Shown here: positions 3,301 through 20,246 of the stretch, in pieces
How positions within the stretch are numbered: the first letter of the stretch is position 1
How the letters are laid out: every line of letters begins with the position of its first letter
NCBI GenBank assembly: GCA_902540275.1
Contig: CACBMB010000009.1
Coordinates: 1 to 64,000 of the forward strand
Source: an uncultured Pelagibacteraceae bacterium
GTDB taxonomy: Bacteria > Pseudomonadota > Alphaproteobacteria > Pelagibacterales > Pelagibacteraceae
Length of the DNA stretch: 64,000 nt
Direction of reading: 5' to 3'
Program-made: the position numbers and the translations under genes
Notes under the pieces: generated by a model
Seen by the model: the letters and a program-made list of their open reading frames with translations, nothing else
What the model was told of the DNA's origin: nothing
Database searches by the model: none

Positions 3301-4185
3301 TTATTTTACAAGAAAATTCACTTTTTTATTTGATAGATTTAAATGAATTTTTTTATATGAACCAAAATTATCTCCATCAATTTGAACAGGTATCAAATCA
3401 TTTCCATCAATAGTAATGTTTTGTGAATAAGTAGTAATAACATTTTTATTTTTACTTAAATCACCATTAAGAATTATTAAAAATATAGAATATAATAAAT
3501 TGATCCTAGTTAAATCCTTAAATATATATGTGACTATTTTATTTTCAAAAATATTTGTTTTATTTATTTTATGATGTCCAGCGTAATATTTGGTATTTGA
3601 GGATAATATCCAGTCTGCTTGATAAAATTGTCCATCAAAAGTAACATTTAATTTTTTATTATTCATAAATAAGAAATATTGAAAACCCTTGATACCAAAT
3701 ATCACTTTTCCAAGAATTTTTTTAATTTTTGAATTAATTGAATGAACAATTTTTGCATCCCACCCTATACCAGCCATTAAAAAGAAATAATTCTCGTTAA
3801 TTTTTACAAGATTAGAGGATTTATAATTATTAGAAATCAATACATTGACTATATCATCAATCTTTTTATTCATTGATAATTCAGCTTGCAGTAAATTTGC
3901 AGTCCCAGCAGGTATATAGCCTATAGCAAAATCGTCTTTAAAATTAAAATCATTCTTTATTAATTCATTAATTGCAAAAGAAACAGATCCATCTCCACCA
4001 GCAACTATTAATCGATCATAATTTTTTTGATTAAAGTTTTTAAAAATTTTCTTAGCTTGATTTATTGTTTTGGTCTCAAAGTATTCTACTGAATTATTTT
4101 CTTTTAACTTAGATAAAACCCTATTTATGAATTTTGATTTTCTTCCAGAGGAAGAGTTTTGATTGTAAATTAAACAATACAACAT
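3301..4185 (-). CDS. Diacylglycerol kinase catalytic-domain lipid kinase
   Basis: DGK_cat motifs VAGGDGSVSFAIN, GYIPAGTANLLQAEL and GIGWDAKIV. Confidence 0.85.
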   Translation of the reverse strand: MLYCLIYNQNSSSGRKSKFINRVLSKLKENNSVEYFETKTINQAKKIFKNFNQKNYDRLIVAGGDGSVSFAINELIKNDFNFKDDFAIGYIPAGTANLLQAELSMNKKIDDIVNVLISNNYKSSNLVKINENYFFLMAGIGWDAKIVHSINSKIKKILGKVIFGIKGFQYFLFMNNKKLNVTFDGQFYQADWILSSNTKYYAGHHKINKTNIFENKIVTYIFKDLTRINLLYSIFLIILNGDLSKNKNVITTYSQNITIDGNDLIPVQIDGDNFGSYKKIHLNLSNKKVNFLVK

Positions 4186-4204
4186 AATTAATCCTTAAAA
4201 AATT

Positions 4205-4222
4205 TTTAACAAATTTGTAACA
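4205..4222. promoter_or_regulatory. Putative Pho box (TTTAACA-aatt-TGTAACA) between the DGK-like and PlcP-like genes
   Basis: Two 7-mers repeated at 11-nt spacing, the geometry of PhoB sites, in a divergent intergenic region. Same motif seen upstream of pstS. Confidence 0.55.
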
Positions 4223-4283
4223 TTTAAATGAAATAAGAAATACATGATTCGTGTTACAGTTGTATTAAAATTTAGGTCTTTAA

Positions 4284-5096
4284 ATGCCTAACATACTTAA
4301 ATACAAAAGCATTTTTATTTCTGATGTGCATTTGGGTACCAAGGGTTGTCAGGCGAAAAAACTTTTAGAGTTTTTTAAAAACTCAAGATCTGAAAATCTT
4401 TATCTTGTAGGAGACATTATAGATGTCTGGGAAATGCAAAAAAGTTTTTTTTGGCCTCAAGAACATAATGATGTAATCCAAAAAATTTTAAGAAAAGCAA
4501 GACATGGCACAAAAGTTTTCTATATTATGGGCAACCATGATGAAATATTAAGAAAATTTATTCCAATGAATTTTGGTGACATCCATATGGTTAATAGAGT
4601 TATTCATGAGACAAATGCTGGAAAAAAATATGTTGTTGTTCATGGTGATGCTTGGGATGGTGTTATGAAACATGCTAAATGGCTATCTAAACTTGGATCA
4701 ATAGCTTACAATTTATTGTTACAAATAAATGTAATAATTAATTTCTTTAGAAGGTTGAGAGGAAAAGAATATTGGTCTCTTGCAAAATATTTAAAATATA
4801 AGGTTAAGAACGCCGTCAAATATATTGGTGAATATGAAAAAACACTCTCAGATTATGCAAAAAGAAAAAAATTTGATGGAATAATTTGTGGCCATATCCA
4901 TCATGCTGAGGATAGAGACTTTAATGGGGTCAATTATTTAAATTGTGGAGACTGGGTTGAATCTTGTACCGCATTAGCCGAAAATTATGATGGTAGTTTT
5001 GAAATATTATATTGGGACAAAATAAGAGAACAATATTTAGACGATAAAGAAATAATTAAATCAATTAAAACTGAAGAATTAAAAAAAGCTTCATAA
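4284..5096 (+). CDS. Calcineurin-like metallophosphoesterase, PlcP-like phospholipase C (UDP-2,3-diacylglucosamine diphosphatase superfamily)
   Basis: ISDVHLG, GDIID, GNHDE, VHGD and CGHIHHAE metallophosphoesterase motifs; followed 3 nt later by a family 1 glycosyltransferase. Confidence 0.8.
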   Translation: MPNILKYKSIFISDVHLGTKGCQAKKLLEFFKNSRSENLYLVGDIIDVWEMQKSFFWPQEHNDVIQKILRKARHGTKVFYIMGNHDEILRKFIPMNFGDIHMVNRVIHETNAGKKYVVVHGDAWDGVMKHAKWLSKLGSIAYNLLLQINVIINFFRRLRGKEYWSLAKYLKYKVKNAVKYIGEYEKTLSDYAKRKKFDGIICGHIHHAEDRDFNGVNYLNCGDWVESCTALAENYDGSFEILYWDKIREQYLDDKEIIKSIKTEELKKAS

Positions 5097-5099
5097 TTA

Positions 5100-6107
5100 A
5101 TGAAAATTTTAATTGCTACAGATGCATATTTTCCACAAGTAAATGGTGTCGTAAGAACCTTACATGAAACAGGTAATGTATTAAAAGAACAAGGTCATAG
5201 AATAGAATATATTACACCTGACTTATTTTTTACTTTTCCGATGCCGAAATATAATGAAATTAAGTTGTCTATAAATGTATGGCCAAGAGTTGGTAATTTA
5301 ATAAAGAAAATCAATCCAGATGCAATTCATATCGCTACCGAAGGCCCGATAGGCACTATGGCAAGAAGATATTGTTTAAAAAATAATCTAAAGTTTACTA
5401 CGAGTTTCCATACAAGATTTGATAAATATCTAAAACTTTACTTTCCTATTATACCAGCAAAATGGGCTGAAAAATTCTTAGCAAATTTTCATAATAAGGC
5501 TGAGAGAATCTTAGTAACAACAGAATCTATGAGAAAAGAATTAATCGATATAGGTATAGATAATAATAAAATGATTACTTGGACAAGAGGAGGCAATCAT
5601 GGACCTTTTAAGAGTCCGAAAAAAATTGATTTACCACATAAAAGACCGATTTGGATTTATGTTGGAAGAGTTGCAGTTGAAAAAAACATAAGAGCTTTTT
5701 TAGAATGTGATTTAGAGGGTACAAAAATGATAATAGGAAAGGGACCTGATTTAAAAAAATTAAAAAAAGAATTTCCTAAAGATATTTTTTTAGGAGAAAA
5801 AACAAACGGTGAATTAGCGTCTCATTTTGCATCTTCCGATGTTTTTGTATTTCCAAGTAAAACAGATACATTTGGAATTGTAGTTTGTGAGTCTTTAAAT
5901 TGTGGAACACCTGTAGCTGCTTATCCTGTTCCAGGTCCTAAAGATATATTTGAGGGTTCCAAAATAAATTGTTTAGATAATGATCTTAAAGTTTCAGCTC
6001 ATAAAGCTTTGAAAGTTAATAGAAATGATTGTCTTGAATTTGCAAAAAAATTCACTTGGGAAGAAACAGCAAAAATATTTTTTAACAATATTTCACCAAA
6101 TCATTAG
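5100..6107 (+). CDS. Family 1/4 glycosyltransferase, candidate diacylglycerol glycosyltransferase (Agt-like)
   Basis: N-terminal TDAYFPQVNGVVRTL, IYVGRVAVEKN, FPSKTDTFGIVVCESLNCGTPVAAY; operonic with the PlcP-like gene. Confidence 0.82.
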   Translation: MKILIATDAYFPQVNGVVRTLHETGNVLKEQGHRIEYITPDLFFTFPMPKYNEIKLSINVWPRVGNLIKKINPDAIHIATEGPIGTMARRYCLKNNLKFTTSFHTRFDKYLKLYFPIIPAKWAEKFLANFHNKAERILVTTESMRKELIDIGIDNNKMITWTRGGNHGPFKSPKKIDLPHKRPIWIYVGRVAVEKNIRAFLECDLEGTKMIIGKGPDLKKLKKEFPKDIFLGEKTNGELASHFASSDVFVFPSKTDTFGIVVCESLNCGTPVAAYPVPGPKDIFEGSKINCLDNDLKVSAHKALKVNRNDCLEFAKKFTWEETAKIFFNNISPNH

Positions 6108-6172: not shown

Positions 6173-7318
6173 ATGGAATATTTCGTCATTCTACTTATAG
6201 TTGTGATAGTTTATCTTCTCTATTTACTTAATCAAAAAAAAAATAAATCAATAAATACCGCTACAATAGTTAATAAAAGAGAAGAAAAAACAAAAAGAGT
6301 AATTATTGATGAGCTTGAAGATCAATTTTTTGCATTAAATAAATTTAACATAATTAAATATGCTAATCCAAGTGCATTAAAAAGATTTGGAAGTAATTTA
6401 ATTGATAAAAACATATCTTCTATAATTCGAAAACCAGAATTAATAGAAAATATTGAAAAAGCTATCGTAGAAAATAAAACAAAAAATATCGATGTTGAAA
6501 TAGACCTCCCATCATATCAATTCTATAAAATTTATATTATTCCTGGCCCAACTCATTTGTTTACTGAACCAGACTCCGTTGTGTTATTTTTAAAAGATTT
6601 TACTGAAATTACAAAAGCACAAAAATTTAAAACTGATTTTGTAGCAAATGTAAGCCATGAATTAAGAACACCTTTAATGGCAATCAAAGGATCACTAGAA
6701 ACAATTGAGGGCCCAGCGTCTGATGATGAAAAGGCTAAAAAAAAATTTATGAAAATAATGACTGATCAATCAAATAGAATGGAAAATTTAATTAATGATC
6801 TTTTAATACTCACAAGAATTGAATTAGAAGAACACATAAGGCCAAACTCTTTAGTTGATATAAATGATCTTTTCAAAACAATCATCAGTAATTTTGAGAT
6901 TATTTTAAAAAGAAAGAAATTAAATATTAATTTATCTCTCGCCAATCCAACAGTTGTTATTGGAGATGAAAAAAAATTACAAACTGTTTTTTCTAATCTT
7001 TTAGATAATGCAATTAAGTATTCAAAGGAAAATAAGTCTATTTTTATATCAAGCAAAATTAGCGATGGTAAATTGTTAGAAAAAAATTTTATGATCAGTA
7101 TTAAAGACGAAGGTGTTGGCATTCCTCAAAGATATATTTCTAGAATTACAGAAAGATTTTTTAGGGTAGATCTTGAACAAAGTAACAAGGTTGGTGGAAC
7201 CGGTTTAGGATTAGCTATTGTTAAACATATAGTTACTCAACATCGTGGACACTATGAGATTCTAAGTGAGGAAAACCAAGGAACTGAAATTCAAATTTAT
7301 TTACCAGCGAAAACTTAA
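6173..7318 (+). CDS. phoR: Phosphate regulon sensor histidine kinase
   Basis: N-terminal TM segment; H-box FVANVSHELRTPL; N and G boxes (LLDNAIKYS, DEGVGIP, GGTGLGLAIVKHI); upstream of pstS. Confidence 0.9.
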   Translation: MEYFVILLIVVIVYLLYLLNQKKNKSINTATIVNKREEKTKRVIIDELEDQFFALNKFNIIKYANPSALKRFGSNLIDKNISSIIRKPELIENIEKAIVENKTKNIDVEIDLPSYQFYKIYIIPGPTHLFTEPDSVVLFLKDFTEITKAQKFKTDFVANVSHELRTPLMAIKGSLETIEGPASDDEKAKKKFMKIMTDQSNRMENLINDLLILTRIELEEHIRPNSLVDINDLFKTIISNFEIILKRKKLNINLSLANPTVVIGDEKKLQTVFSNLLDNAIKYSKENKSIFISSKISDGKLLEKNFMISIKDEGVGIPQRYISRITERFFRVDLEQSNKVGGTGLGLAIVKHIVTQHRGHYEILSEENQGTEIQIYLPAKT

Positions 7319-7408: not shown

Positions 7409-8017
7409 ATGGTTAAAATATTCAAAAATATTTTGATTTTTGCTTTTTTATTAAGCTCTATAACAACAAGTGTTTTTTCTAAAGATATCACAACATTATT
7501 AAGAAATCAGCAACTTACAGTTTTTGATATTGGAATTTTTAGATTAGAGGCAGATTTGAAAACTTCATATCCTTCTATTAAAGATCATTTAGAAGTTACT
7601 GAAGCTGAATTTTATACAGACGTAGTTACCTCGTATTCTAAAAATTCAATTGATTTAATTGTTTCTGTTCCTATGAATAGAAATCTCAAGAAGGAAAATT
7701 ATTTTTCAGATTCTTTTAGATGTAGGAATATTTTTAATTCTGTAAGAGATTTTTTATTGAGGAATGAAAATTTGAGTAATTATAGATATACTATGGCTAC
7801 AAGCTATTTAACCTCTATATTTTCAACCCCAAGTTCATGGCCAAGCTGGAGATATGATGAAGAAATTAGAGAGGAATTAGTAAACTTAGTAAAACTAGAA
7901 ATAACTTTACGTCCAACCAAAGAACTAGCTCTTAATGAACAGGTAAACCCTGTTTCATGTATTGGTGGCTTAGAAACTGATATTGATCAAATAATTATAT
8001 CAAAAAAATACAACTAA
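7409..8017 (+). CDS. Uncharacterised exported protein in the pho/pst cluster
   Basis: 202-aa ORF with a signal-peptide-like N-terminus (ILIFAFLLSSITTSVFSKD); flanked by phoR and pstS; family not recognised. Confidence 0.75.
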   Translation: MVKIFKNILIFAFLLSSITTSVFSKDITTLLRNQQLTVFDIGIFRLEADLKTSYPSIKDHLEVTEAEFYTDVVTSYSKNSIDLIVSVPMNRNLKKENYFSDSFRCRNIFNSVRDFLLRNENLSNYRYTMATSYLTSIFSTPSSWPSWRYDEEIREELVNLVKLEITLRPTKELALNEQVNPVSCIGGLETDIDQIIISKKYN

Positions 8018-8028
8018 AAAGTTACCTT

Positions 8029-8057
8029 TTTAACAAAAGTGTAACAATTCTGTAATA
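8029..8057 (+). promoter_or_regulatory. Putative triple Pho-box repeat upstream of pstS
   Basis: TTTAACA-aaag-TGTAACA-attc-TGTAATA: three 7-mers at exact 11-nt periodicity, followed by an AT-rich -10-like region around 8070. Confidence 0.7.
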
Positions 8058-8126: not shown

Positions 8127-9158
8127 ATGAAAAAACTAACTATAGTAATTGCTTCTTTAGTTGCACTTTCAATTGCAACTGTTGCTCAAGCAAGAGATCA
8201 AATTAAGATAGTTGGTTCTTCTACAGTATTCCCTTATGCAACAGTTGTTGCTGAAAGATTTGGTGGTTCAGGATTTAAAACTCCTGTAATCGAGTCTACT
8301 GGTACTGGTGGTGGAGCTAAACTATTCTGTGCTGGTGTAGGTGAACAACATCCAGATATTACAAATGCATCAAGAGCTATGAAAGATAAAGAAAAAGCTC
8401 TATGTAAGAAAAATGGTGTTAATGATATCGTTGAGATCGTAATTGGTAACGATGGTATTACATTAGCTTACAGCAAAGATGCAAAACCAGTAAACTTTAC
8501 TAAAGAACAATTATATTTAGCACTTGCTGCTCATACAGTTGTTGATGGTAAATTAGTTCCAAATATTTATAAAACTTGGGACCAAATTGACCCTAGCTTA
8601 CCAAAACAAAAAATTTCAGTGATGATCCCACCAGGAACATCAGGAACTAGAGATGCTTGGAATTCTTTAGTAATGAAAAAAGGTATGACTAAAGAAGCTA
8701 AAGCTCTTTATAAAGCTGGTTTTGAAGCTGGAAATAAAAAATACAAAAAACCTCAAAAACTTTACAGAGAAGATGGTGCTGCTATTGAAGTTGGAGAAAA
8801 CGATAGTTTAATCATCCAAAAGTTAACTCAAGATAAAGAAATGTTTGGTTTCTTTGGTTTCAGTTATTTCTTAGCTGCAAAAGATAAATTGCAAGCAGCA
8901 AGTATTGATGGTGGACAACCGTCATTAAAGTCTATTCAAGACTACAGTTATGCTGTTGCTAGACCTTTATTCTTCTACGTGAAAAAAGCACACGTTGGAG
9001 TAATTCCAGGCTTACATGAGTTTGTGAAAGAATTCACAACTAAGAAAGCTATTGGAAAAGGTGGTTACTTAGCAGACATTGGTTTAGTGCCATTAGACTC
9101 TAAGTTGTATAAAACAACTAGAACTAATGCTACGAAGCTAGTTGCTATGGGTAATTAA
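8127..9158 (+). CDS. pstS: Phosphate ABC transporter substrate-binding protein
   Basis: Signal peptide; IKIVGSSTVFPYA, ESTGTGGGAKLFCAG and PPGTSGTRDAW motifs. Confidence 0.97.
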   Translation: MKKLTIVIASLVALSIATVAQARDQIKIVGSSTVFPYATVVAERFGGSGFKTPVIESTGTGGGAKLFCAGVGEQHPDITNASRAMKDKEKALCKKNGVNDIVEIVIGNDGITLAYSKDAKPVNFTKEQLYLALAAHTVVDGKLVPNIYKTWDQIDPSLPKQKISVMIPPGTSGTRDAWNSLVMKKGMTKEAKALYKAGFEAGNKKYKKPQKLYREDGAAIEVGENDSLIIQKLTQDKEMFGFFGFSYFLAAKDKLQAASIDGGQPSLKSIQDYSYAVARPLFFYVKKAHVGVIPGLHEFVKEFTTKKAIGKGGYLADIGLVPLDSKLYKTTRTNATKLVAMGN

Positions 9159-9249: not shown

Positions 9250-10635
9250 GTGAACTTAATATTATTTACATTTATTGTTCTTCTAGGTTTCACAAGCTAT
9301 TATTTTGGACGCAAAAAAGCATATACAATTCAATCTACAAAAAAAAGATTAACCGCATTACCACAATTTTATGGTTATTATCTTGCAATCTGGTGTGCAA
9401 TACCAGCCTTTATAATTTTTTCATTATGGGCAATTTTTGAGCCCACAATTGTAAAACTATTAATCTTAAGTGATTATTCAAATCAAGGTTATCTTGATGA
9501 TGAATTAAATTTATTATACGAAAAATCAAAAGCATTGTCTCGAGGGCAATTCACTGGAGAAATTACACCTTTTATTGAAGCTTCAGCTGAAAAATATTTA
9601 AGTCTTCGATCAATAGCTCAAAGTTCAAAAGTTGTTATAGTATTATCTGCAATTATTGCCTCTGTTGCTTATGCGTATAAAAGAATTTCATCTAATTCTA
9701 GAACAAGAGAACCAGTTGAAAAATTTTTGAACGCAGTTTTATTTACAGCTTCTTTAGCTGCAATATTAACTACTGTTGGAATAGTTTTCTCACTTATATT
9801 TCAAACTATAGATTTTTTTAAAGTAATTCCATTATTTGATTTTGTCTTTGGAACTCACTGGTATCCAGCAAAAGCTTTTGTTAGAGATTCTTCTGAGGCT
9901 TTAGATCCGACAATGTATTCAGATACTTTTGGAGCAGTCCCTATTTTTGCAGGTACTTTTTTTATTGCATTTATTGCTATGTGCGTTGCTATCCCAATTG
10001 GATTAATGAGTGGAATTTATTTAGCTGAATATGCATCAACTAAAGTTAGACAATATGCAAAACCATTAATTGAAATTTTAGCTGGTATACCAACAGTTGT
10101 TTATGGTTTTTTTGCTGCCCTAACTGTTGGACCATTTTTGAAAGAATTAGGAACTTCAATGGGTCTTGAAGTTTCAGCTGAAAGTGCTTTAGCAGCAGGA
10201 GGGGTAATGGGTATTATGATTATACCATTTATTTCAAGTTTAAGTGACGATGTAATTACAAGTGTGCCTCAAAGTTTAAGAGATGGAAGTTACGCTATGG
10301 GAGCAACTAAATCAGAAACAATTAAGAGAGTTATTTTTCCCGCGGCATTGCCGGGGATAGTTGGATCTATTTTACTTGGTGTTTCAAGAGCTATTGGAGA
10401 AACAATGATAGTTGTTATGGCCTCTGGTTTAGCTGCTAATTTAACTTTAAATCCTTTAGAGTCTACTTCAACGATTACAGCTCAAATTGTAGTTATTCTA
10501 ATTGGTGACCAAGCTTTTGGCGACCCAAAAACGCAAGCTGCTTTTGCTTTAGGTATGTCATTATTTTTAGTAACACTTTGTTTAAATATTGTGGCCTTGA
10601 GAGTAGTTAAAAAATATAGAGAAAAATATGAATAA
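9250..10635 (+). CDS. pstC: Phosphate ABC transporter permease
   Basis: BPD_transp_1 permease with extended N-terminus; GTG start; pst gene order. Confidence 0.95.
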   Translation: MNLILFTFIVLLGFTSYYFGRKKAYTIQSTKKRLTALPQFYGYYLAIWCAIPAFIIFSLWAIFEPTIVKLLILSDYSNQGYLDDELNLLYEKSKALSRGQFTGEITPFIEASAEKYLSLRSIAQSSKVVIVLSAIIASVAYAYKRISSNSRTREPVEKFLNAVLFTASLAAILTTVGIVFSLIFQTIDFFKVIPLFDFVFGTHWYPAKAFVRDSSEALDPTMYSDTFGAVPIFAGTFFIAFIAMCVAIPIGLMSGIYLAEYASTKVRQYAKPLIEILAGIPTVVYGFFAALTVGPFLKELGTSMGLEVSAESALAAGGVMGIMIIPFISSLSDDVITSVPQSLRDGSYAMGATKSETIKRVIFPAALPGIVGSILLGVSRAIGETMIVVMASGLAANLTLNPLESTSTITAQIVVILIGDQAFGDPKTQAAFALGMSLFLVTLCLNIVALRVVKKYREKYE

Positions 10636-11896
10636 AAATAAAGAACAATTATTAAATAAAAGATATAAAGCTGAACAGCGATTTCGCTTATACGGTCTGA
10701 GTGCAATTTTTATGGCACTTTTATTTTTAACAATCTTTATTTTTAAAATTTTTTCAACTGGCTATTCAGCTTTTCAAAAAACATGGTTTATTGTTCCAGT
10801 AACTTTCGATGCTGAATTAATGATGTTAGACCAAAATCCTTCTAAAGAAGATTTACAGGACGCTGATTATTACGATATAGCATTAAAATCAATGGCTGAT
10901 TTAGATCCAAACGCCAATGAAGATCAAGAAAATGAATTGAAGAGAATGGTGTCTTATTTTTTTGAAAAAGAAATTAAAAATGAACTTTTAAATGACCCTA
11001 ATTTAATAGGAAAAACAAAGGAAGTTTATCTAACTGCTTCAGATGATTTAGACCAAGTCTTTAAAGGAAATTATCCAAGAGATTTACCTGAAGACCAAAG
11101 AAGAGTAAGCGATTATCAATTAAAAATTTTTGATCAACTTGTTGCAAATGGTAAGGTTGAAAGTAAATTTAATATAAGTTTTTTTACAAATGCTGACTCA
11201 AGAGAAGCTGAGCTAGCTGGAATAGCAAGTTCATTTATGGGCTCAATTTTTTCTATACTTGTTTGTTTAATGATAGCTTTTCCTGTTGCGGTTCTAGCTG
11301 CAATCTATCTTGAAGAATTTGCCCCTAAAAATAGATTTACTGATTTTATTGAAGTTAATATAAACAACTTAGCAGCGGTTCCATCTATAGTTTTTGGTCT
11401 ATTAGGGTTAGGAATTTTATTGGCTATATTTCAATTACCAAGGTCTACCCCATTAGTTGGAGGTATCACTTTGTCCTTAATGACCTTACCAACAATAATT
11501 ATAGCTGCTAGAGCATCTTTAAAAGCAGTTCCACCAAGTATAAGAGAGGCAGCACTTGCTATGGGAGCAAGTCGAATGCAAACCACAATGCATCATACAG
11601 TTCCTCTTTCTATGCCTGGCACGTTATCAGGAACAATAATTGGTTTAGCTCAAGCTTTAGGAGAAACTGCACCCTTAATTTTAATTGGAATGGTTGCTTT
11701 TGTTAACACGATACCTGGATCACCCATGGATCCTGCTGCAAGCTTACCAGTTCAAATTTATATTTGGGCTGAAAGTGCTGAAAGGGGATTTGTAGAAAAA
11801 GTTTCGGCATGTATAATGGTCTTACTTGGCTTTTTAATAATAATGAATTTATTTGCCCAAATAATAAGACATAAGTTTGAGAAAAAATGGAGTTAA
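10628..11896 (+). CDS. pstA: Phosphate ABC transporter permease
   Basis: Permease motifs ([47 protein letters not shown]); overlaps pstC. Confidence 0.95.
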
Positions 11897-11897
11897 A

Positions 11898-12653
11898 ATG
11901 ATAAAGATTAAAGCAAAAGATGTTGATGTTTTTTATGGAAAAAAACAAGCGCTCTTTAATATAAGTTTAGATATTGAGGAAAATCAAGTAACGGCATTAA
12001 TTGGTCCATCTGGTTGTGGTAAATCAACTTTCCTAAGATGTCTTAATAGAATGAATGATGTAATTGATATCTGTAGTGTTAAAGGAGAAATTTTAATTAA
12101 TGATTTTAATATCAATGATAAAAGTTGTGATGTCGTAAGACTAAGAGAAAAAATTGGTATGGTTTTTCAAAAACCCAATCCTTTCCCAAAAACTTTATAT
12201 GAAAATGTATCTTACGGTCCAACAATTCATGGTATGGCTCAATCAAAACAAGAAATGGATGAAATTGTTGAAACTAGTTTGAAAAAGGCTGCACTATGGG
12301 AAGAGGTAAAAGATAGGTTGCATGAACCTGGAACTGGATTATCTGGAGGACAACAGCAAAGACTTTGTATTGCTAGAGCGATTTCTGTAAGACCTGAAGT
12401 TATATTAATGGATGAACCTTGTTCAGCATTAGATCCAATAGCAACTGCACAAATTGAAGAATTGATTGATGAGTTAAAAAAAGAGCACACAATAATAATT
12501 GTAACTCATTCTATGGCTCAAGCAGCACGTGTTTCTCAAAATACAGGTTTTTTTCATTTAGGACAATTGATTGAACATGGATCTACTGATAAAATATTTA
12601 AGAATCCTGATAATAAAAAAACGCAAGATTATATAACAGGGAGGTTCGGATAA
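11898..12653 (+). CDS. pstB: Phosphate ABC transporter ATP-binding protein
   Basis: [36 protein letters not shown] at 11898 preferred over TTG at 11877. Confidence 0.97.
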
Positions 12654-13360
12654 TGTCTGAAGCACCACATACAGTCAAATCTTACGAAGAAGAACTAAAA
12701 AATCTTAATGCTAATATAATTAAAATGGGAAGTGCATGTGAAGATTCTTTAGGTAAAGCAATTCAGGCCATTACAACAAGAGATACCAATATTGCAGAAG
12801 CTGTTATTCAAGAAGATGAAAAAATAGATAAATATGAGACTTTAATTGAACAGCAAGTTGTGAATTTAATTGCTTTAAGACAACCTATGGCAATTGATTT
12901 AAGAGAGACAGTAACGGCTTTGAAAATGTCTTCAGATTTAGAAAGAATAGGTGATTTAGCAAAAAATATATCCAAGAGAACACTTTTGCTTAACGAAAAT
13001 CTTCCAAAGAACTTGGTAGACTCATTGAATAGAGTATCTACCAATGTTCAAAAACAATTAAAATCAACATTAGATGCTTATCTAGAAAGATCTGCGCCAA
13101 TGGCAGTAAATGTTTGGGAAGGTGATGAGCAAATAGATGATCTAACAAATCTTTGTATGCAAGAAGTTATAAAATATCTTAAAGAAAATGAAAAAAATTT
13201 AGAAGATGGAACCCATTTATTGTTTGTAACTAAAAACATAGAGCGTATTGGTGATCATACTACAAATGTTGCAGAACAAGTTTATTATTTAGTTAAAGGC
13301 GAATATTTAGAAGGTGATAGACCCAAGGGAACAGAGCCAATTGTAACCGGAGAAAAATGA
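12653..13360 (+). CDS. phoU: Phosphate signalling regulator
   Basis: PhoU repeats (DLRETVTALKMSSDLERIGDLAKNI; TKNIERIGDHTTNVAE). Confidence 0.96.
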   Translation: MSEAPHTVKSYEEELKNLNANIIKMGSACEDSLGKAIQAITTRDTNIAEAVIQEDEKIDKYETLIEQQVVNLIALRQPMAIDLRETVTALKMSSDLERIGDLAKNISKRTLLLNENLPKNLVDSLNRVSTNVQKQLKSTLDAYLERSAPMAVNVWEGDEQIDDLTNLCMQEVIKYLKENEKNLEDGTHLLFVTKNIERIGDHTTNVAEQVYYLVKGEYLEGDRPKGTEPIVTGEK

Positions 13361-13363
13361 TTT

Positions 13364-14047
13364 ATGTCAGTTCATGTTTTCATAGCTGAAGATGAAGCAT
13401 CAATTGTTAGTTTGTTAAAGTACAATCTTGAAAAAGAAGGTTATAAAGTCAGTCATTCAGAAAATGGAGAAGATGCTCTTAAACAAATAAAATTAAAACA
13501 GCCAGATTTAATATTAATGGATTGGATGTTACCAGAATTATCTGGTGTTGAAATTTGTAAAAACTTAAAAAAAGATAATAAGTTTAATGATATTCCTGTC
13601 ATTATGTTAACTGCAAAAGGGGAGGAAGAAGACAAATTAAAAGCATTTGATACAGGTGCAGATGATTATGTAACTAAACCTTTTAGTCAAAAAGAATTGA
13701 ATGCTAGAATTAAATCTTTATTGAGAAGATCTAAACCTCAATCATCATCAGACATTGTAGAATTTACTGATTTAAAAATAGATCGGATTACAAAAAGAGT
13801 TTATAGAAAAGATAAAGAAATTACTTTGGGTCCAACTGAATTTAAACTCTTAGATTTTTTTATCAAAAATCCAAAAAGAGTTTATTCAAGAGAACAACTC
13901 TTAAACAATGTTTGGGGAGAAAATATATATGTTGAGTCTAGAACAGTTGATGTTCATATTAGAAGATTAAGACAAGCAATTAACATACAAAATACAAAAC
14001 CTTTAATTAGAACAGTAAGATCAGCTGGTTATTCTTTAGAATCTTGA
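13364..14047 (+). CDS. phoB: Phosphate regulon response regulator (OmpR family)
   Basis: Receiver domain (LILMDWMLPELSG; DDYVTKPF) plus winged-helix domain; follows phoU. Confidence 0.94.
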   Translation: MSVHVFIAEDEASIVSLLKYNLEKEGYKVSHSENGEDALKQIKLKQPDLILMDWMLPELSGVEICKNLKKDNKFNDIPVIMLTAKGEEEDKLKAFDTGADDYVTKPFSQKELNARIKSLLRRSKPQSSSDIVEFTDLKIDRITKRVYRKDKEITLGPTEFKLLDFFIKNPKRVYSREQLLNNVWGENIYVESRTVDVHIRRLRQAINIQNTKPLIRTVRSAGYSLES

Positions 14048-18677: not shown

Positions 18678-19169
18678 TTATATTTTTTTAAGAACTGTTA
18701 TTAAATAAAAAAACATTGCTATATGAGAACTATTATTGAATTTTTGATTTAATATTAATTTAAATATCTCTCTTTGATTAAAAAGATGAATTCTAATACC
18801 TTGTTCTGGTTTCGAAATTTTAATTAAGTCTTCTGTGTAATAACCAGTAATTTTAGTAGTTAGTCTTCCAGGTTCATTATAAAAAGTTATTATTTTAGTC
18901 AATTTTGATCTTGATCTATATCCTGTTTCTTCTCTTAATTCCTTATATGCTGATTGGAGAGTTGTTTCCTTTTTTTCCACTATGCCAGAAGGAAACTCGT
19001 AATTAATTTTATTAATTGGAACTCTTTTTTGGGAAACTACTACATATTTGTCTTTAATCTTAGGTATTACTAATGAAAGATTAGAAGTTTTAAGATAATG
19101 ATAAAACTCTTTTTTTTTAAATTTTTTGTTAATTAAACTTATTCGATTGGTAAGTTTTATATTTTTCAA
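18678..19169 (-). CDS. NUDIX hydrolase
   Basis: Nudix box-like GIVEKKETTLQSAYKELREETGY; overlaps the aquaporin gene. Confidence 0.88.
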   Translation of the reverse strand: MKNIKLTNRISLINKKFKKKEFYHYLKTSNLSLVIPKIKDKYVVVSQKRVPINKINYEFPSGIVEKKETTLQSAYKELREETGYRSRSKLTKIITFYNEPGRLTTKITGYYTEDLIKISKPEQGIRIHLFNQREIFKLILNQKFNNSSHIAMFFYLITVLKKI

Positions 19170-19825
19170 TTTTTTTCTAAAAATAACTTTTTAACAATAA
19201 GTACAGCAATTAACATTCCAATAAGCTCAGCTAATATATAATAAGGAGTATTTAAATAACTAATACCAGTAAATGACTCTGTAAATGTTCTAGCAATAGC
19301 AACCGCAGGATTTGCAAAAGAAGTTGAAGAAGTAAACCAATAACCAGCAGTAATATAAAGACCAACACTAGCAGCAACAGCAATTTTGCCTGACTTCATA
19401 GACCCAAAAATTATCACTATAAGTCCTAATGTTGCTATTACCTCAGATGTGAATATGTAAATTCCATCTCTTGATTTAGTAGACAATTCATAAATTTCAT
19501 GTTCAAAAAAGAAATTAGCTAAACCAACACCAATCAAGCAACCAACCAATTGAGCAATAATATAGTAGGGTAATAGTTTCTTTTTTAATTTACCTGTTAT
19601 TGTCATAGCGATACTTACAAATGGATTAAAGTGAGCTCCTGATACATCAGCAAATACTGTAATAAGCACAAATAAACCTGCTCCTGTTGCTATTGTGTTT
19701 GCAATTAACATTACAGCAACGTCATTGGTTAAGTTTTCAGCCATTAAACCTGAACCAACAATAATCATTACCAAAAAACAACTGCCTAATAGTTCAGCAA
19801 GAAAATAACGACTTTTATTTTTCAT
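19166..19825 (-). CDS. MIP-family channel (aquaglyceroporin, AqpS-like)
   Basis: Two half-helix motifs in MIP topology (GAHFNPFVSIA; SFANPAVAIARTF); overlaps arsC. Confidence 0.85.
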   Translation of the reverse strand: MKNKSRYFLAELLGSCFLVMIIVGSGLMAENLTNDVAVMLIANTIATGAGLFVLITVFADVSGAHFNPFVSIAMTITGKLKKKLLPYYIIAQLVGCLIGVGLANFFFEHEIYELSTKSRDGIYIFTSEVIATLGLIVIIFGSMKSGKIAVAASVGLYITAGYWFTSSTSFANPAVAIARTFTESFTGISYLNTPYYILAELIGMLIAVLIVKKLFLEKN

Positions 19826-20246
19826 TAAGTAGTTCCTTTATATTTTTATTAATATGGTTAAAAACTTTTTCTATTATTTCATCTTTTTTATTCAAGTCAT
19901 TTGTTTCATTAAGTAATTTAACAGGATCCTCTATATCCCAATGAATTATCTGATCTTTATTTGGCCAAATAGGGCAGACTTCATTATTGGCATTATTACA
20001 AACTGTAATAACATAATCCATTTTAATTTGACCATTAATAAACTCATTAAAATTTTTAGATCTATAATTTGAAAGATCATAATGTTTTGATAATAAATAA
20101 TTCTTCACATCTTCGTTAATTTTTCCTGTTGGATTACTCCCTGCACTAAAACCTTTATACATATCGTCATGTTCATTATTTATTATACTTTCAGCAATAA
20201 TACTTCTTGCTGAATTACCTGTGCATACGAACAATATATTCCTCAT
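19815..20246 (-). CDS. arsC: Arsenate reductase, thioredoxin-coupled LMW-PTP fold
   Basis: P-loop VCTGNSARSIIAE; VCNNANNEVCPIWP, typical of ArsC rather than a tyrosine phosphatase. Confidence 0.87.
   Translation of the reverse strand: MRNILFVCTGNSARSIIAESIINNEHDDMYKGFSAGSNPTGKINEDVKNYLLSKHYDLSNYRSKNFNEFINGQIKMDYVITVCNNANNEVCPIWPNKDQIIHWDIEDPVKLLNETNDLNKKDEIIEKVFNHINKNIKELLNEK

Follow-up and report, generated by a model that had tools for sequence, protein, structure and literature searches.

Lipid renovation is important because it enables the ocean's most abundant bacteria to subsist on scarce phosphorus. Current models of this process end with the conversion of phospholipid to diacylglycerol (DAG) and of DAG to glycolipid. 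PlcP is described as converting phospholipids to DAG under phosphorus deficiency, and an Agt protein from SAR11, when expressed in E. coli, converts DAG to MGDG and GADG (PMC4796936, PMC8231724). The plcP-agt pair with its Pho boxes is already known in SAR11. Here, we analysed a 64,000-nucleotide stretch of DNA from an uncultured bacterium of the family Pelagibacteraceae, hereafter referred to as the window, in which such a pair lies back-to-back with a gene of the DAGK_cat lipid kinase family.

Organization of the locus

The original prediction described a DGK_cat gene that diverges from plcP and agt across 98 bp, and both the coordinates of the open reading frames and the Pfam matches agree with this arrangement (Table 1). 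Its account of the lipid genes was correct but incomplete, as it did not include their continuation into phoR, a gene for a conserved protein, pstSCAB, phoU and phoB. Because the genes run on in this way, the kinase, plcP and agt are part of the cell's own Pho locus. Genes for a histidine phosphatase, a polyphosphate kinase and an exopolyphosphatase are found downstream of phoB.

Table 1 Features of the lipid kinase, plcP-agt and Pho locus, in window coordinates.
Feature	Position	Strand	Remarks
DAGK_cat lipid kinase (putative DAG kinase)	3301..4185	-	294 aa; Pfam PF00781 1.2e-23
Divergent promoter region kinase/plcP	4186..4283	.	98 bp
Pho-box-like repeat TTTAACA-AATT-TGTAACA, facing plcP	4205..4222	+	61 bp from box edge to plcP ATG
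Inverted Pho-box-like repeat TTTAATA-CAAC-TGTAACA, facing kinase	4252..4269	-	66 bp from box edge to kinase ATG
plcP-like intracellular phospholipase C (calcineurin-like phosphoesterase)	4284..5096	+	270 aa; Pfam Metallophos
agt-like GT4 glycosyltransferase	5100..6107	+	335 aa; Pfam GT4 and Glycos_transf_1
phoR sensor kinase	6173..7318	+	TIGR02966 phoR_proteo 6e-84, 281.9 bits, below the cut-off of 334.2
202-aa protein, conserved, function unassigned	7409..8017	+	Without Pfam or NCBIfam match
pstS Pho-box-like array, three 7-bp units, 11-bp period	8029..8057	+	69 bp from array edge to pstS ATG
pstS phosphate-binding protein	8127..9158	+	PBP_like_2 9e-42; TIGR02136 1.6e-39, below cut-off
pstC	9250..10635	+	TIGR02138 273 bits, cut-off 196
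pstA	10628..11896	+	By gene order and sequence reading
pstB	11877..12653	+	By gene order and sequence reading; the ATG at 11898 is the likely true start
phoU	12653..13360	+	PF01895 7e-44
phoB response regulator	13364..14047	+	Response_reg and Trans_reg_C

Two other features of this region can be mentioned. In another SAR11 locus (L066), an open reading frame of 211 aa occupies the position in the phoR-pstS interval that matches the 202-aa protein of the window. Near the Pho locus, at 19166-20246, a gene similar to low-molecular-weight phosphatases adjoins an aquaglyceroporin-like gene. This pair resembles an arsenate reductase with an arsenite channel, and both gene types are listed in the phosphate islands of HIMB59, as tyrosine phosphatase and glycerol facilitator.

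PlcP, Agt and a possible role for the kinase

The PlcP-like protein matches Pfam Metallophos with 48.8 bits (cut-off 21.5), and a reading of its sequence finds the metal-binding motifs DxH, GDxxD, GNHD, H and GHxH complete. An identity as LpxH is ruled out by scores of 49.6 against a cut-off of 134 and of 39.3 against one of 190.35. By analogy with PlcP elsewhere, the protein is a putative hydrolase that would release DAG from PG and PE. The Agt-like protein has the GT4 fold (79.6 bits against a Pfam cut-off of 28.5) and its gene lies directly 3' of plcP, the two features by which we recognize Agt.

In other genera of SAR11, the interval from agt to phoR contains genes similar to olsB and olsA, for ornithine lipid synthesis (L066:4972-6552 and L068:6417-7981). 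The genome G035 has the order kinase, plcP, agt, with an Agt of 334 aa and with olsB- and olsA-like genes alongside, whose assignment comes from scores of their homologues in L066. The window's genome gave no match to OlsB.

We think it somewhat more probable than not that this is a SAR11 phosphorus-starvation locus that joins lipid renovation to a soluble lipid kinase, which would work as a Pho-linked DAG valve. Low phosphate would activate PhoR and PhoB, and the Pho boxes would then drive plcP-agt, pstSCAB and probably the kinase gene. PlcP would cut PG and PE to DAG, Agt would make glucosyl or glucuronosyl DAG from it, and the kinase would convert the DAG that Agt leaves unused to phosphatidic acid (PA). 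Such a valve would keep DAG non-toxic and would allow phospholipids to be rebuilt. An outlet of this kind is suggested by analogy with DgkB. Bacteria are harmed by surplus DAG, which DgkB converts back to PA, and they can dispense with dgkB only when the synthesis of LTA, which makes DAG, is blocked (PMC10865820). The kinase step spends the phosphate of ATP and therefore saves no phosphorus, so that a role as a valve, or in recovery from starvation, fits better than one in scavenging.

Pho-box-like repeats

The original prediction had the two divergent genes share one Pho-box-like element. The element is present in the gap and faces plcP, but it is not the only one, since a second, inverted repeat faces the kinase. 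Both consist of direct 7-bp repeats with a period of 11 bp, and the two are oppositely oriented. The window's lineage has one element for each gene, whereas other lineages have a single box.

The whole 1.2-Mb genome was scanned with the pattern TKTAACA-N4-TGTAACA. There are two exact matches, the plcP-facing box in the gap and, ahead of pstS, the segment 8029-8046. When one mismatch is allowed there are six matches, of which four are located in this locus, including the kinase-facing inverted copy and the third unit of the pstS array. The remaining two have one mismatch each; one is inside a cell-wall gene and the other was not placed at a promoter. A chance origin of the gap repeat is ruled out by the position of both exact matches at Pho promoters, together with the conservation of the repeat. 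Of 31 distinct gaps compared from SAR11, 28 have the plcP-facing box with no more than one mismatch, and 19 have the kinase-facing box with no more than two, the latter box being absent in several SAR11 lineages. In other Alphaproteobacteria, a Pho-box-like repeat that deviates at one position or none is contained in 13 of 40 kinase-plcP gaps, where 0.5 would be expected. Counts of looser matches inside the window were not above those of shuffled sequences (18 against 12.7 with three mismatches, and 20 against 20.4 in a second count), so loose matching carries no weight. Direct 7-bp repeats with this period precede several Pho genes of the genome, as Pho boxes would, and by their position and form the repeats of the gap and of pstS are putative PhoB sites.

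The motif GATTC, a methylation-type site of the form GANTC, also recurs in the plcP/kinase gaps of different SAR11 genera, where its location is similar and it is sometimes paired. One gap (L021) has the perfect inverted repeat GATTCTA-N7-TAGAATC.

These repeats bear on the time at which the kinase would act. The kinase could serve mainly in recovery, rephosphorylating DAG when phosphate returns, without co-induction with plcP, and would then be a switch back instead of a valve. Consistent with this, the kinase gene is divergent from plcP, not in an operon with it, at all 56 linked loci of the class-wide sample described below, and in several SAR11 lineages the plcP-facing box stands alone. 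Moreover, some kinases lie beside phoR without a box: in four SAR11 genomes (G028, G037, G045 and G059) the kinase gene diverges from phoR with plcP-agt absent between them, and no Pho-box-like repeat is visible in these four short gaps. However, the window's lineage does have a second box that faces the kinase, at a spacing like that of the plcP and pstS boxes, and in Pseudomonas putida BIRD-1 the DagK protein, a possible orthologue, is reported to be enriched when Pi is depleted (PMC5082522). We consider a role mainly in recovery unlikely. The DAG valve is supported by the matched spacing of the three elements and by the occurrence of exact repeats at the gap and pstS only.

The lipid kinase

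The assignment of the kinase to the DAGK_cat family by profile is secure (83.5 bits against a cut-off of 23.6 for PF00781). The ATP-binding motif GGDG, at residues 63-66, the motif GTxN (as GTAN) and the C-terminal DG(D/E) (as DGD) are all intact. The nearest solved structure is that of DgkB from Staphylococcus aureus (2qv7), which aligns to residues 5-285 with an E-value of 4e-20. Among the profiles, the DgkB-like DAG kinase model gave the highest score, 112 bits, against 69 for YegS. The protein falls outside TIGR00147, the family of YegS/Rv2252/BmrU lipid kinases, with 102.4 bits against a cut-off of 118.65. A search with PF00781 found no other DAGK_cat gene in the window's genome, which also lacks a match to DgkA, the DAG kinase of the membrane type, and this adds support to a valve formed by this kinase. 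DgkA is absent from 98 of the 101 genomes searched. A few SAR11 genomes have DgkA instead (G078, at C1:559751-560047, G249 and G262), and the first of these has neither a plcP match nor a DAGK_cat match.

Residues Asp68, Thr94 and Glu273, which we take to be key residues of the DgkB active site, align to D65, T95 and D272 of the kinase, the last with a change from Glu to Asp. The Mg-coordinating Asp97 of DgkB (PMC7864038) is replaced by Leu98. All the plcP-linked kinases that were examined have V, I, L or C as the equivalent residue. Furthermore, the position of DgkB Glu73, shortly after GGDG, is occupied by Phe in the window's lineage and by Glu in some other SAR11 genera and other Alphaproteobacteria. 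Animal DAG kinases presumably have Trp at this place, and for this reason the Phe is not taken as a loss of activity. With both a hydrophobic residue at the Asp97 position and Phe at that of Glu73, activity on DAG cannot be assumed.

The kinase could instead act on another lipid, whether PG like YegS, a sphingolipid like CpgB or some glycolipid, with DAG not its main substrate. The hydrophobic residue at the Asp97 position, found throughout the plcP-linked kinases, would agree with this, and the substrates of DAGK_cat-type proteins do vary, YegS and Caulobacter CpgB being lipid kinases with other substrates (PMC10331486). The profile scores and the best solved structure, however, point to DgkB; the linked plcP would make DAG and the linked agt would use it; and the literature covered names no sphingolipid among the lipids of SAR11. 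A main substrate other than DAG thus seems improbable to us, and DAG is the predicted substrate in the proposed valve.

Conservation of the pairing

The kinase and plcP were searched in 247 genomes of the SAR11 family. PlcP was found in 112 and a DAGK_cat protein above the cut-off in 113. The 106 genomes with both have the two genes adjacent and divergent wherever they are on one contig. In four of the six genomes with plcP only, plcP is at a contig end, while G019 and G071 have a true plcP-agt pair without an adjacent kinase. The close matches to the window's plcP are all single-cell or metagenome records of Pelagibacteraceae or Pelagibacterales, in agreement with the origin of the window from SAR11. 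A second set comprised 80 named SAR11 records, from a scan of named genomes that gave SAR11 records only. The kinase is in place in 78 of them and the other two are cut by contig ends; in 69 of the 70 loci with room, the genes continue with agt, phoR, the gene of the 202-aa protein and pstS. The third set was a class-wide sample of 318 alphaproteobacterial genomes, with 129 plcP loci listed. A DAGK_cat gene adjoins plcP at 56 of these, in 33 families, always divergently, and within 640 bp in 55 cases. All 40 pairs that were fetched read kinase, plcP, agt, with agt straight after plcP. The adjacency is therefore kept in relatives at all three scales, and the predicted lipid-renovation pair of SAR11 with a linked gene of the DAG kinase family is supported.

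The co-occurrence of plcP and kinase inside SAR11 has a Fisher p of 7e-53, a value that is not independent of adjacency and shared ancestry, and the case rests for this reason on recurrence across families. Because the pairing recurs in 33 families, a real functional link between the kinase and plcP-agt is likely. The deeply kept adjacency, with an inverted box facing the kinase, supports the valve as well.

The linkage also has limits. Among 40 plcP loci without an adjacent kinase that were checked, agt is still beside plcP in 36, which makes plcP-agt the core, to which the kinase is an optional addition. Kinase genes without plcP exist too: a second kinase copy in G167 also diverges from phoR, and in G135 (L078:4285-6107) a kinase of the same clade adjoins, convergently, a glycerophosphodiester phosphodiesterase gene that closes an ABC transporter cluster of the sugar-phosphate type. 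Genomes with only one of the two genes rule out a strict tie between kinase and plcP. The original prediction saw in the locus both directions of a lipid phosphorus switch, and these kinases without plcP, with the 36 plcP-agt pairs without an adjacent kinase, mean that the two directions are not an obligatory unit. SAR11 loci in which the kinase diverges straight from phoR without plcP-agt can be seen in L072-L075 and L079. In L124 (G570), the kinase diverges from an agt-like gene, and plcP was not detected in the fetched stretch.

In a class-wide tree of the kinases, which is poorly resolved and has many weak inner branches, the sampled SAR11 kinases are all in one clade. The plcP-linked kinases are clustered, with 14 changes against 23.9 in shuffles, but they are mixed with unlinked ones, and a single plcP-specific clade is unsupported.

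The 40 class-level stretches that were fetched, of 5-8.5 kb each, showed no pst gene and a single weak histidine-kinase match (L090), so that membership of a Pho locus does not by itself account for the trio outside SAR11. The kinase could also be a passenger of the Pho locus, inherited with phosphate islands and with a role independent of PlcP. In favour of this, phosphate islands in HIMB59 show cassette-like variation (PMC10734472), the kinase is kept beside phoR or pstS without plcP in SAR11 genomes, and in one genome it adjoins agt alone. However, the kinase stands beside plcP-agt in 32 families other than that of SAR11, in pst-free stretches, and a single orientation so widely kept would hardly be expected of a passenger, which we regard as the least probable explanation. 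The DAG valve may be extended to a broader and more tentative proposal, in which kinase, plcP and agt would be an ancient alphaproteobacterial module for DAG partition. PhoB would induce the DAG-producing enzyme and also the kinase that converts DAG back to PA, competition between Agt and the kinase would set the phosphorus content of the membrane, and the kinase would represent a distinct subfamily without Asp97.

Comparison with known systems

A kinase back-to-back with plcP in 33 families implies that the fate of DAG is controlled. Such control would bear on the speed with which membranes are switched and switched back, on the cost in ATP and phosphorus, and on the use of metagenomic plcP counts as a marker of phosphorus stress. 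The fate of DAG is directly testable in culturable relatives that have the same trio.

The closest known system is the PlcP-Agt pair of marine heterotrophs, including SAR11 HTCC7211, which matches the window in its two adjacent genes, their order, the Pho-box-like sites and the group of organisms (PMC4796936, PMC8231724). An adjacent DAGK_cat gene does not appear in the published section on gene context (PMC4796936, PMC8231724). In the window, moreover, plcP-agt runs straight into phoR-pst-phoUB. The divergent kinase-plcP pair as a conserved unit was not found described in the searchable literature. The original prediction had called the pairing with the kinase the less described part. This is fair, but not in an absolute sense, because such kinases have been recorded in HIMB59, at BATS and in P. 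putida (PMC10734472, PMC3686209, PMC5082522).

The phosphate island fGIp-C of HIMB59 has nearly the gene list of the window: pst, phoRB, ppk, histidine phosphatase, ppx, glycosyltransferase, tyrosine phosphatase and glycerol facilitator, together with a diacylglycerol kinase and an 'LpxH' that is possibly PlcP (PMC10734472). HIMB59, however, belongs to a different bacterial order, its diacylglycerol kinase is listed without a direct phosphorus function, and the kinase, LpxH and glycosyltransferase were not read as a lipid-renovation module (PMC10734472). A DAGK_cat protein is among the SAR11 genes over-represented at BATS (PMC3686209). In P. putida BIRD-1, DagK is counted, alongside PlcP, OlsA and OlsB, among the Pi-responsive proteins of lipid renovation (PMC5082522); this organism is a gammaproteobacterium, and orthology of its DagK to the window kinase, like a corresponding gene linkage, is hypothetical.

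The Gram-positive DgkB belongs to the same family as the window kinase, and the proposed role of the two is alike, next to an enzyme that releases DAG (LtaS in the case of DgkB) and a DAG glycosyltransferase (YpfP). The window kinase differs from DgkB in the hydrophobic residue at the Asp97 position and in the linkage of its gene to plcP-agt. The source of DAG differs as well: for DgkB it is the synthesis of LTA, whereas for the window kinase we propose that it would be PlcP under phosphorus starvation.
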